Origin: Candidatus Pelagibacterales bacterium | GTDB lineage: Bacteria; Pseudomonadota; Alphaproteobacteria; Pelagibacterales; Pelagibacteraceae | Assembly (NCBI GenBank): GCA_016882225.1 | Contig: VHCA01000001.1 | Span: 1 to 53,202 of the forward strand | Reading direction: 5' to 3' | Length of the DNA stretch: 53,202 nucleotides | In this document: positions 4,437 to 8,516 of the stretch, piece after piece | Position numbering within the stretch: the first letter of the stretch is position 1 | Layout: every line of letters begins with the position of its first letter | The notes under the pieces: generated by a model | Seen by the model: only the letters and a program-made list of their open reading frames with translations | The model's database searches: none | What the model was told of the DNA's origin: nothing | Translations under genes and position numbers: made by a program

Positions 4437-4982
4437 TTATTTCTTTTTCTTTTCTTTATCAATCTTTGGCTCTAGAGGCTTTTCTTCTTTTTTTATAGGA
4501 TCTGCAACTTTTTTAGGGGCATCCGCCACAACTTGAGGATTAACTTGACCCTCTAGTTCCTGTACCACCTCTTTTGAAGGAAGAGGCTGCATAATATCAA
4601 CACCAATTTTTTTTCTAATTTTTTCTGCAATTCTTGCAGATTTTCCTTTTCTATCTCTCAAATAGTACAGTTTTGCTCTTCTAACTTTACCTGTTCTTAT
4701 AACTTCAACCGATTCAACGTTTGGACTATGTATTGGGAAAAGTCTTTCGACACCCTCACCAAAGGAAATTTTTCTAACAGTAAAAGTTGAATTAATTCCA
4801 CGGTTTTTTCTTGCAATACAAACTCCCTCGAAAGCCTGTATACGCTGTCTTTTTCCTTCAACTATTCGCACATTAACTTTAATAGTATCGCCCGGTGAAA
4901 ACTCAGGTATTTTTTTCTTTTCACCAATTTTTTTTATGTGCTCTCTATCTAAATCTTCAATTCTCATGGATAAATTTTGCAT
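4437..4982 (-). CDS. rplS: Ribosomal protein L19 with long charged C-terminal tail
   Basis: L19 sits at the interface of the 30S and 50S subunits. The core (about residues 10-125) shows the family pattern [29 protein letters not shown] and [18 protein letters not shown]19 is usually about 115-130 aa; this one has 181 aa, with a low-complexity tail rich in K, E, P and V ending in a lysine run. The neighbouring S16 is also extended. The gene starts 7 bp after trmD in the conserved order rpsP-trmD-rplS. The tail was not predicted from context, but it is in frame with no sign of a frameshift. Confidence 0.95.
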
Positions 4983-4989
4983 TAATAAA

Positions 4990-5679
4990 TTATTGTTTAT
5001 GATACTTTTCCCATAAATCTTTTCTCTGGCGTCGTGTTATATCCTCAGATTGTTTCAAGCGCCAGTCCTTAATTTTTGAATGATTCCCAGATAAAAGAAC
5101 TTCTGGAACTTTTTTTCCATTCCAAACTTGTGGCTTAGTATAATGAGGATACTCAAGTAAATTATTTTCGAAACTCTCCTCTAACAATGAAGTTTCATTA
5201 CCAACTACTCCTGGAAGTAATCTAATTGTTGCATCAAGAAGTGTGAATGCTGCTGTTTCTCCCCCCGACAATACATAGTCCCCAACACTAATCTCTCGCA
5301 TATTTCTGGACTCTATTATTCTTTGATCAATACCCTCGAAGTGACCACAAAATATATTTATCCATTTATTTTGGATAAGTTCGTGAGCTATTTTTTGATT
5401 AAATCTTTCTCCTTTTGCACTTAGATAAATAACTTGATCATTTTTTGATGCTAAATTTTTTTCTAAACAAGCATCAATAACATCAGCTCTCATAACCATG
5501 CCACTGCCTCCGCCAAAAGGTTTATCATCTACTGAACCATGTTTATCAAAAGCATAGTCTCTAATGTTTACAACATCTAAAGACCAAATTTTTTTTTCTC
5601 TAGCTTTTTTGTAAAGTCCTATATCTAAAATTCCGGGAAAGAATTCAGGATATAAAGTAAAGACTTTTACTGACCACAT
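4990..5679 (-). CDS. trmD: tRNA (guanine-N1-)-methyltransferase
   Basis: TrmD methylates G37 next to the anticodon, preventing +1 frameshifting; it is a trefoil-knot SPOUT enzyme acting as a dimer with S-adenosylmethionine. The 229-aa protein shows the family start [14 protein letters not shown], the catalytic-region motif [13 protein letters not shown], and the knot segments [12 protein letters not shown] and [13 protein letters not shown]. The position between rpsP (6 bp upstream) and rplS (7 bp downstream) is canonical. What is odd is that rimM, normally between rpsP and trmD, is not there. Confidence 0.96.
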
Positions 5680-5685
5680 ACAACC

Positions 5686-6144
5686 TTATGCTTTTTTTTC
5701 TTCTGCTGGTTTTGCTACCTCGGGTGCTTTAGCTGGTTGCTTCGGTTGCTCTTTTGGAGTCTCTGCAGCTGGAGCGGCTGGTGCTGCTTCTACTTTAGCT
5801 TCTGTTTTTTGCTCCGGAGCTTGTTGTGCTTTTAATCTTTCCTGAGTTTTTTTTCTTGGTAAAGCTTTCTGAGGATTATTTCTTTTTTCTGGTACAGGAG
5901 CTAATTTTGCTTCTCCTAAAAATCTTGCAACTCTAAAAGTTGGCTGAGCACCAATTTTCAACCAATGCTTAATTCTTTCAGAATCTAAACTTATTCTCTC
6001 AGGTTTTGATTTTGGAATAAGCGGATTAAAATAACCTACTTTTTCAATAAACTTACCATCTCTTGGGTATCTAGAGTCTGCAATAACAACTCTATATACC
6101 GGTCTTTTTTTTGTTCCTCCTCTTGCTAGTCGTATTCTAAGCAT
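5686..6144 (-). CDS. rpsP: Ribosomal protein S16 with Ala/Pro/Glu/Lys tail
   Basis: S16 is a 30S assembly protein. The first ~80 residues are the conserved core ([37 protein letters not shown]). Beyond it lies a ~70-residue tail dominated by A, P, K, E and Q, giving 152 aa against about 80-100 for short S16 proteins. Extended tails on S16 are known in alphaproteobacteria. The DNA under the tail is clearly richer in GC than its surroundings because of Ala and Pro codons, so this local shift need not mean transfer. The gene follows ffh by 9 bp and precedes trmD by 6 bp. Confidence 0.95.
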
Positions 6145-6153
6145 TTTTCCTTT

Positions 6154-7515
6154 CTATTTTAGATTGTTAAATAATTCTGGAGGAATACCATCTGGACCTC
6201 CAAAATTTCTTCCTCCACCTTGAGACATTTTTTTCATCATGTTCGTCATCATTTTATGTTGTTTCAGAAGCTTGTTTACCAAGGCGATTTCTGTTCCAGC
6301 TCCATGTGCAATCCTTTTTTTTCTAGAACCATCTATAATTTTAGGATTTTCTCTTTCTTTTGGAGTCATAGAGAGAATAACTGCCTCTTGTTGATTTAAA
6401 ATATTTTCATCGATATCAGCTTCATCAAGCTGTTTTTTAATTTTTGAAATACCAGGGATCATTCCAAGAACTTTTCCCATTCCACCAATTTTTTTCATTT
6501 GCCTAATCTGTTTTAAATAATCATTAAACGTAAATTGCCCTTTTTTGAGACTGTCTTCTAATTCCTCAATCTCTTCTTTCTTTAAATCTTCTGAAACCTT
6601 TTCAACTAAGGAAACAATGTCACCCATTCCAAGAATTCTATTTGCAATTCTTTCTGGATAAAAAACTTCTATATCTTCAACTTTTTCACCAACACCTAAA
6701 AATTTAATTGGGCAACCTGTCACTGATCGCATACTTAAAGCAGCTCCGCCTTTACCATCACCATCAACTCTTGTTAAAATAACCCCTGTTAAATCCACAG
6801 CTTTTTTAAATTCGGTAGCAATATTCACTGCATCCTGTCCTGTTAAAGAGTCTGCAACTAGTAGTATTTCTACAGGATTTATTATTTTTTTAAGCGATAC
6901 AAGTTCATTCATCATTACTGTATCAATCTGAGTTCTTCCTGCAGTGTCAAAAATAATTACATCAGATCCTGACAAGGATGCTGCTGATAGGGATCGTTGA
7001 GTAATATCTGTTGGAAGCTGTCCTTCTACAATCGGAAGTGAATATAAGCTATGTTGTTTTGATAAAATTTCTAATTGTTGTTGAGCTGCTGGACGATAGA
7101 CGTCTAGGCTAACTAACATGATTTTTTTTTTAAAATTTTTTTCTAAATACTTTGCAACCTTAGCAGAAGTGGTTGTTTTGCCCGATCCCTGTAATCCTAT
7201 CATCATAATTTTAACTGGGGGAACAACATTAAGGTTTATATCTGAGTTAGAACTACCAAGAACTCTTACTAGTTCATCAAAAACAATTTTAACTAAGAAC
7301 TGTCCTGGAGTTACAGATTTAAGAACCTCTTGACCAATCGCCTTAGGCCTAACTTGATTTACAAAGTCTTTTGCAACAGATAAAGCAACATCGGACTCGA
7401 GAAGGGCCTGTCGTATTTTTCGAAGACCTTCATCCACATGCTTTTCTTCAAGTCTAGTACTCTTGTTAAAAAAAGAGAAAACTGACTCAATTTTACTCGT
7501 TAAATTTTCAAACAT
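6154..7515 (-). CDS. ffh: Signal recognition particle GTPase Ffh (SRP54)
   Basis: Ffh binds signal sequences of nascent membrane proteins and, with SRP RNA, delivers ribosomes to FtsY. The 453-aa protein has the N domain, then the G domain with P-loop GLQGSGKTTTSAKVA, DVYRPAAQQQL, DTAGRTQID and TRVDGDGKGGAALS. The methionine-rich M domain follows (KMMTNMMKKM) and ends in a Gly/Asn-rich tail. The ATG is fixed because an in-frame TGA lies just upstream, and GGAG is about 10 bases before it. ffh heads the rpsP-trmD-rplS operon. Its leader is unusually structured (see 7516-7624), and its partner ftsY is encoded divergently 1 kb away. Confidence 0.97.
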   Translation of the reverse strand: MFENLTSKIESVFSFFNKSTRLEEKHVDEGLRKIRQALLESDVALSVAKDFVNQVRPKAIGQEVLKSVTPGQFLVKIVFDELVRVLGSSNSDINLNVVPPVKIMMIGLQGSGKTTTSAKVAKYLEKNFKKKIMLVSLDVYRPAAQQQLEILSKQHSLYSLPIVEGQLPTDITQRSLSAASLSGSDVIIFDTAGRTQIDTVMMNELVSLKKIINPVEILLVADSLTGQDAVNIATEFKKAVDLTGVILTRVDGDGKGGAALSMRSVTGCPIKFLGVGEKVEDIEVFYPERIANRILGMGDIVSLVEKVSEDLKKEEIEELEDSLKKGQFTFNDYLKQIRQMKKIGGMGKVLGMIPGISKIKKQLDEADIDENILNQQEAVILSMTPKERENPKIIDGSRKKRIAHGAGTEIALVNKLLKQHKMMTNMMKKMSQGGGRNFGGPDGIPPELFNNLK

Positions 7516-7624
7516 TTTTCATTTGCTCCAGCAGCAATTGCACTAGTGGGCGAATATCGCTGACTAGTGTTGATCTCCTTCTTGGAAGGACACCACAAAA
7601 CCTGCTAATTTTTGTGGAAAATTA
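7508..7624 (-). promoter_or_regulatory. Candidate structured RNA leader of ffh (three hairpins, possible pseudoknot)
   Basis: The spacer holds three perfect inverted repeats in a row. Read on the minus strand they are CCACAAAA/TTTTGTGG with a 9-nt loop (7593-7617), TCCTTC/GAAGGA with a 3-nt loop (7576-7590), and CACTAGT/ACTAGTG enclosing GCGA/TCGC with a 3-nt loop (7541-7569). The first loop contains AGCAG, which can pair with CTGCT (7530-7534) immediately before the GGAG ribosome-binding site of ffh. The RNA could therefore switch SD exposure. It is not 4.5S RNA: the GGAA tetraloop with flanking SRP54-binding bases is absent. The function, strand and fold are inferred from pairing only. Confidence 0.45.
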
Positions 7625-7631
7625 CGCTAAA

Positions 7632-7658
7632 GGTATAATTTACTATTTTAAAAGTCAA
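7632..7658 (-). promoter_or_regulatory. Possible ffh promoter
   Basis: On the minus strand TTGACT (7658-7653) is followed after 15 bases by TATACC (7637-7632). The spacing is shorter than the ideal 17, so support is moderate. Transcription would start near 7625 and give a leader of about 110 nt containing the three hairpins. Confidence 0.3.
7634..7639 (+). promoter_or_regulatory. Possible -10 element for dapF-ftsY
   Basis: A perfect TATAAT lies about 55 bases before the dapF start on the plus strand. No good -35 box is seen at the usual distance. It overlaps the candidate minus-strand -10 of ffh, so the two divergent transcripts might compete for polymerase. Confidence 0.3.
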
Positions 7659-7694
7659 TAATTGCTAATAATTTAGTTATCAATTTCTCTATCA

Positions 7695-8516
7695 ATGGAA
7701 CTTCAAGCTTACAGAATGGATGGTTTAGGTAATGACTTCATTATCATCGATAGACGTAAAAAAAAAATCGATCTCACTAAAGATACGATTTTAAAAATTG
7801 CAGATAGAAAAATAGGGATAGGTTGTGATCAGGTTATCATCATTGATAAGGATAAAGAAAAAAAAACAGATGCCAAAATTACTTTTTTTAATTCAGATGG
7901 TGGTCAAGTAGCGGCCTGTGGTAATGGAAGTAGATGTATTTCTTTTTTTCTAATGCAAGAAAAAAATAGAAAAAAATCATCTATTAACACTGAGAGCGGA
8001 ATCTTAACCGCGCAGCTTAAGCAAGCTAATGAAATCAGCATTGATATGGGTAAACCAAGTTTTTTATGGAATAAAATTCCATTAGTTAAAAAGATGAATC
8101 ACAAAAAAGTTTTAATAAAACTTAAAAATAACCAAAGTTTTATTGGCTATACCCTAAGTGTTGGAAACCCACATATTATTATTTTTAAAAATATAACAAT
8201 TGAAAAACTAAAAGAAATTGGACCGGTAATAGAACATCATAATTATTTTCCAGAACGATGTAATGTTACTTTCGCAAGAATCTTGGATAGAAAAAACATT
8301 GAAATCAAAGTCTGGGAAAGGGGAGCTGGTCTTACTCAGGCTTGTGGAACCGCTGCTTGTGCTACTGTTGTGGCATCATCAAAACAAAGACTTACGGGGA
8401 GACAGGCGAGCATCCATTTTAAAAATGGTACCTTACATATACATTGGCAACCCAATAATCGTATCATCATGACTGGATCGGTATCTCCAATCTACAAGGT
8501 CTCATTAAATATTTAA
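7695..8516 (+). CDS. dapF: Diaminopimelate epimerase
   Basis: DapF converts LL- to meso-diaminopimelate, the precursor of lysine and of the peptidoglycan cross-link. It is a cofactor-independent epimerase with two catalytic cysteines. Both are visible: Cys75 in ACGNGSRC and Cys217 in GLTQACGTAACA. The N-terminal MDGLGNDF is the family signature, and 273 aa is the normal length. The gene starts without an obvious Shine-Dalgarno sequence. It lies divergently from ffh and 5 bp before ftsY. In many alphaproteobacteria a methylthiotransferase gene lies between dapF and ftsY; here it is missing. Confidence 0.96.
   Translation: MELQAYRMDGLGNDFIIIDRRKKKIDLTKDTILKIADRKIGIGCDQVIIIDKDKEKKTDAKITFFNSDGGQVAACGNGSRCISFFLMQEKNRKKSSINTESGILTAQLKQANEISIDMGKPSFLWNKIPLVKKMNHKKVLIKLKNNQSFIGYTLSVGNPHIIIFKNITIEKLKEIGPVIEHHNYFPERCNVTFARILDRKNIEIKVWERGAGLTQACGTAACATVVASSKQRLTGRQASIHFKNGTLHIHWQPNNRIIMTGSVSPIYKVSLNI

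Follow-up and report, generated by a model that had tools for sequence, protein, structure and literature searches.

A three-hairpin RNA element upstream of ffh in a SAR11-like genome is probably a cis-acting 5′ leader of the (ffh-)rpsP-trmD-rplS(-leuCDB-asd) operon, and feedback by ribosomal protein S16 or L19 is its most plausible role on comparative sequence grounds. The element belongs to a known RNA family, RF01793. What is new is its dissociation from SRP, its extended structure and a possible two-state design. The dissociation was seen in one alphaproteobacterial family, here called f51, in which the element is followed directly by rpsP and SRP components were not detected.

Leader and operon in the source genome

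The window analyzed is a stretch of 53,202 nucleotides from a genome assembled to 0.79 Mb in 98 contigs and 75% complete. Its minus strand carries, in this order, ffh, rpsP, trmD, rplS, leuC, leuD, leuB and asd, spaced no more than about 20 nt apart (Table 1). Two of these frames we take to be trmD and rplS. There is no rimM between rpsP and trmD (5679-5686), where at least one f51 genome (locus L309) has it. The divergent neighbor of the operon is dapF (7695-8516), and the hairpins occupy the spacer between dapF and ffh. A TTGAC box and an A/T-rich −10-like stretch are conserved at the position of the putative promoter in an alignment of SAR11 leaders.

Table 1. Positions of the operon genes and leader features in the window
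Feature	Position	Strand	Description
ffh	6154-7515	-	453-aa ORF, first gene of the operon; ATG at 7515
rpsP (ribosomal protein S16)	5686-6144	-	ORF; served as tblastn query
trmD (presumed)	4990-5679	-	ORF
rplS (ribosomal protein L19; presumed)	4437-4982	-	ORF
Putative promoter	7632-7658	-	TTGACT-15-TATACC; from sequence and SAR11 alignment
Hairpin 1 (P1), 8 bp	7593-7617	-	CCACAAAA 7617-7610 / TTTTGTGG 7600-7593
Shared strand UGGU	7592-7595	-	3′ end of the second arm of hairpin 1 and the next base; alternative partner AUCA
Hairpin 2 (inner P2), 6 bp	7576-7590	-	TCCTTC 7590-7585 / GAAGGA 7581-7576
Junction AUCA (outer P2 clamp)	7571-7574	-	Partner of shared strand UGGU
Hairpin 3 (P3), 7+4 bp	7541-7569	-	CACTAGT-CA-GCGA 7569-7557 / TCGC-CC-ACTAGTG 7553-7541
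Conserved tail	7526-7540	-	CAATTGCTGCTGGAG; class-wide column conservation

The initial annotation described perfect inverted repeats of 8, 6 and 7+4 bp before ffh and considered them unlikely by chance. The repeats are present at 7617-7541 on the minus strand. Folding of a 141-nt stretch gave an energy of −38.4 kcal/mol (z = −3.7), with 1 of 200 shuffles equally good, and the RF01793 motif recurs across most of the order (103 of 117 genomes), so the hairpins do exceed chance. Hairpin 3 consists of 7 bp, a C.C mismatch plus an A.C, 4 bp and a short loop; its internal loop CA/CC lies at 7562-7561 and 7549-7548. In SAR11 the conserved tail reaches into the ribosome-binding region of ffh, where GGAG (7529-7526) forms the Shine-Dalgarno region.

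Two longer-range pairings near the start of ffh were rejected. AGCAG (7606-7602) is complementary to CTGCT (7534-7530), which adjoins GGAG, and these had been proposed to form a possible pseudoknot that could hide or expose the ffh start. This pairing was not maintained in 84 SAR11 leaders (permutation p = 0.048; 0.32 in 30 diverse leaders). The minimum-energy fold has an outer stem that closes the three hairpins and hides the Shine-Dalgarno sequence; it was not maintained either (p = 0.23 in the 84 SAR11 leaders and 0.58 in the diverse set). Its 5′ strand adjoins the probable promoter, and since the stem begins near 7632, where that promoter ends, it may be partly untranscribed.

Relation to the known ffh motif

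A search of the whole window against Rfam with cmscan gave RF01793 (“ffh”) as its sole match, at 7533-7584 on the minus strand with 53.2 bits (gathering score 35), covering only hairpin 3 and a few flanking bases. A hit to RF04216 (mir-509) at 15.9 bits was far below gathering and was dismissed as chance. The score above gathering, the bulged hairpin with two near-invariant cytosines and the position upstream of ffh make membership in RF01793 clear. The element is therefore already known, which answers the question of whether it matches a described family.

Meyer et al. (2009; PMC2704228) reported the ffh motif as a single bulged hairpin before ffh, of unknown function, in Pelagibacter and other alphaproteobacteria. 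Our element shares with it hairpin 3 with the two conserved cytosines, the site before ffh and the lineage, since the motif was first found in Pelagibacter. The published model stops at one bulged hairpin, whereas the structure found here also takes in the first two hairpins, the clamp UGGU/AUCA and the tail. A descriptor of hairpin 3 matched before ffh at five further loci (L238, L264, L267, L272 and L273), in records titled Robiginitomaculum, Rhodospirillales, Kiloniella and Elioraea; these are at or near groups that were listed as lacking the motif (PMC2704228).

The element is distinct from the bacterial small SRP RNA (4.5S, RF00169), with which it has in common only the pathway of the neighboring gene. 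It lacks the 4.5S tetraloop, as had been stated before, and RF00169 gave no match at 7450-7720 up to E = 10. The 4.5S RNA of the source genome lies away from the element (G000:C5:26605-26702, 53.5 bits).

RF01793 has the Rfam type “Gene; sRNA”, and the element might be a separate trans-acting small RNA that lies before ffh by coincidence. An RNA of about 120 nt, sm5, was predicted in the dapF-ffh interval of Sinorhizobium meliloti (PMC2573895), and the element was detected in small RNA surveys, including one in PMC7717549. We nevertheless regard this explanation as improbable because the operon that the element heads is the same throughout the class, f51 included. In the source genome, moreover, only about 10 nt separate the end of the tail from the start of ffh, and no intrinsic terminator was found at the element.

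Conservation and covariation of the hairpins

In wider samples, the motif was found in 75 of 289 genomes of a class sample and in 55 of 299 genomes of a phylum sample; among the matches listed for the latter, all fall in the same class. For SAR11, 84 distinct leaders were aligned without the use of structure, and all column pairs were compared with a null model in which the substitutions seen are reassigned among the branches of the tree. This test is R-scape-like and not R-scape itself. The three best column pairs fall in hairpins 3 and 2 (E = 0), and two pairs of hairpin 2 covary at E = 0.

A set of 46 diverse SAR11 leaders was used to examine individual pairs. Hairpin 2 had double changes at 5 of 5 tested pairs, with 97.6% of cells paired. 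The four basal pairs of hairpin 1 were kept in 98.9% of cells, with double changes at two of the four, and hairpin 3 had double changes at two pairs. Overall, 98.4% of cells were paired, compared to 92.0% in shuffles. On these alignments, hairpins 1 and 2, which lie beyond the Rfam model, are also conserved and covarying in SAR11 relatives. Covariation in relatives was thus found for all three hairpins, and the leader reading of the initial annotation is upheld: the ffh-rpsP-trmD-rplS operon has a leader that is both conserved and structured.

The class-wide set contains 165 distinct sequences (62 from SAR11, 92 from other alphaproteobacteria and 11 from f51). The pairing percentage of its non-SAR11 members is biased because they were picked by a descriptor that demands pairing; variety of pair types was not demanded. 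Five pairs of hairpin 3 covary in this set (E ≤ 0.01), and the C.C mismatch is nearly universal (163 of the 165 sequences). The position beside it is A.C in 125 sequences, C-G in 10, G-U in 6, G-C in 4 and U-A in 3 (E = 0.4), which hints that it may be a real pair but is suggestive only. Column conservation in the tail reaches 0.87 at T4, 0.89 at T11 and 0.73 at G13.

Outside SAR11, the distance from the element to the start codon ranges from 17 to about 300 nt. At five loci (L041, L081, L188, L192 and L201), the motif lies about 290-360 nt upstream of ffh and an ORF ends just before ffh; the motif may therefore head a longer operon at these loci.

A shared strand with two partners

Three columns of the SAR11 alignment change together: G/A in the 5′ arm of hairpin 1, C/U in its 3′ arm and G/A in the junction before hairpin 3. 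The RNAalifold consensus paired the 3′ arm (CGGU/UGGU) with the junction (AUCG/AUCA), so that hairpin 2 is clamped, and chose this pairing over hairpin 1. At the first pair of the clamp, 35 sequences have C-G and 10 have U-A. On a tree of Ffh proteins, columns 58 (3′ arm) and 83 (junction) change on the same 4 branches, and all three columns change on 3. The triple 40/58/83 ranks first among 18,424 triples of comparable columns, no other of which reaches its value. By hand inspection, the clamp varies in f51 yet stays paired, as CGGUC/GAUCG, CAGUCC/GGAUUG, CAAUCC/GGAUUG and CGGUUC/GAAUCG. In two SAR11 loci (L107 and L108), a base pair of hairpin 1 has changed together with the base in the junction and the loop of hairpin 3, with the rest of the leader like that of the nearest relatives.

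A UGGU strand with two covarying partners is compatible with two mutually exclusive states. A base triple is an alternative that would explain the co-change equally well. The alternation between clamp and hairpin 1 involves few evolutionary events (four branches), with pairwise E-values of only 0.25-1.4. From the presumed transcript start, the source genome leader has a computed energy of −34.0 kcal/mol with the clamp and −32.8 kcal/mol with hairpin 1; over 65 SAR11 leaders, the two states differ by a mean of 0.3 with a standard deviation of 3.5. Computed energies that are nearly equal are no proof of switching. In the clamped fold of the source genome, AGCAG and CUGCU form an ordinary helix.

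These features bear on two explanations that do without a protein ligand. One is a stable 5′ element that sets only mRNA stability, processing or basal translation and has no dedicated ligand. It would fit the short leader RNA that accumulates in Bartonella bacilliformis (PMC7717549) and the variable distance to the start codon, from 17 to about 300 nt, but the conserved unpaired positions (the C.C in 163 of 165 sequences and the tail) and the joint change of the three columns suggest that the RNA is specifically recognized. We consider this explanation unlikely. The other is a metabolite-binding riboswitch, in keeping with two exclusive pairings and conserved unpaired bases. With a conserved core that is small and an operon whose core is ribosomal and tRNA-modifying, we consider a riboswitch very unlikely.

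A family with the motif and apparently without SRP

The class survey exposed f51 as a family in which a gene other than ffh follows the motif. We examined 18 genomes of this family (G408, G189, G313 and G701-G715; loci L063, L214-L226 and L309-L312), with assemblies of 0.9-1.4 Mb, 6 of them at least 90% complete. RF01793 matched in 14 of the 18 and not in the other 4. The next gene was rpsP in 14 of 14 loci, with the end of the hairpin about 40 nt before its start. The operon reads rpsP-(rimM)-trmD-rplS-leuCDB-asd, with rimM in at least one genome. Where ffh would stand, the dapF-rpsP interval of the assembled loci holds only the leader.

Searches for SRP components in f51 were negative. PF00448, the SRP54 GTPase domain carried by Ffh and FtsY, exceeded the cut-off in 0 of 18 genomes, with matches in 14 of 14 controls, and 4.5S RNA (RF00169) was found in 0 of 18. 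TIGR00959 had no match in the 3 f51 genomes tested but matched in each of the remaining 69 genomes of that search. The single PF00448 match in f51, weak and below the cut-off (G703, 20.5 bits), falls in a frame of 310 aa that we read as a P-loop protein like adenylylsulfate kinase, not as SRP. Judged by its genomes, f51 is apparently a bacterial family without SRP. A literature search for SRP loss in this family found nothing.

The f51 leaders retain the marks of the element. The inner stem of hairpin 3 has a compensated change, from GCGA/UCGC to ACGA/UCGU, which suggests that the element is under selection after SRP loss. The conserved tail is kept, well upstream of the rpsP Shine-Dalgarno sequence. 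Upstream of hairpin 3, these leaders are less structured (mean z = −0.74). It may also be that the leader simply remained with the operon promoter when ffh was lost.

In motif-positive genomes of the class sample that have ffh and the S16 gene on the motif contig, the S16 gene follows ffh in the same orientation, either immediately or at a distance of up to about 4 kb. In two genomes (G147 and G311), the motif match is below the gathering score and on a different contig, and in a few genomes one of the genes was not found. In Rickettsiales, rpsP without an adjacent ffh has no recognizable motif.

This distribution bears on SRP autoregulation, in which Ffh or the ratio of Ffh to 4.5S RNA would act on the leader to control ffh. 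Regulation of ffh was the role suggested in PMC2704228, and the element does stand before ffh in SAR11 and in most alphaproteobacteria that have it. An SRP leader would be expected to be absent where SRP is absent, but the element is present before rpsP in f51, where Ffh, FtsY and 4.5S RNA were not detected. It is also unlike the part of 4.5S RNA that is bound by Ffh (PMC2704228). We therefore hold SRP autoregulation to be quite unlikely. Of the ligands proposed in the initial annotation, SRP level is contradicted by f51, and a ribosomal protein is now the best supported.

A probable ribosomal-protein leader

Since f51 keeps the RNA before rpsP apparently without SRP, its role most likely lies with the ribosomal-protein operon rather than with protein targeting. 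What a ribosomal leader would lead one to expect was found: rpsP and rplS lie downstream both here and in f51, and the structure is conserved and covarying. Resemblance to the rRNA site of the ligand is frequent, but not required, in such leaders. Local alignments of the element to the 16S and 23S rRNA of three rRNA operons stayed at the level of shuffled queries, so no rRNA mimicry was found.

We propose that free S16, or as a second choice L19, both encoded in the operon, would bind the core of hairpins 2 and 3. The bound protein would favor UGGU-AUCA pairing, and hairpin 1 would be opened. In the source genome, the CUGCU beside the ffh Shine-Dalgarno sequence would then be paired and operon expression would go down. 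S16 is our first choice because in f51 the element has rpsP as its neighbor. Eckert and Weinberg (2020; PMC7247131) caution, though, that the ligand is poorly predicted by the next gene, and L19 therefore stays a candidate. RimM is unlikely since rimM is missing from the operon in the window.

A translational output is possible in SAR11 because the tail extends into the ribosome-binding region (GGAG, 7529-7526). With the element 17 to about 300 nt upstream elsewhere, the output there must be a different step or work in a different way, and termination, stability and translation are all candidates. Attenuation or processing is also possible given the short leader RNA in Bartonella (PMC7717549) and sm5 predicted in Sinorhizobium (PMC2573895).

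An S16 ribosomal leader candidate of Flavobacteria (PMC7247131) is similar by its description, as it stands before rpsP (usually with rimM) and S16 is its suspected ligand; it differs in belonging to another phylum and was described independently. A 2024 review (PMC10931766) notes that nothing is on record about how the rpsP-trmD operon is regulated.

More tentatively, the ffh motif could be a widespread alphaproteobacterial feedback leader for S16 (or L19), a two-state RNA in which a strand is exchanged between hairpin 1 and the hairpin 2 clamp. In most lineages such a leader might link the production of SRP to the supply of ribosomal proteins, and it might have been kept for the ribosomal genes alone in the family that lost SRP. 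The tie of RF01793 to ffh is in any case not obligatory, as rpsP is the next gene in f51. Natural loss of SRP in this family, if true, would be remarkable. Since its description in 2009, RF01793 has had regulation of ffh as its only suggested role; the extended structure supplies concrete positions to mutate, and the f51 case makes the choice between S16 or L19 and Ffh as the ligand directly testable.
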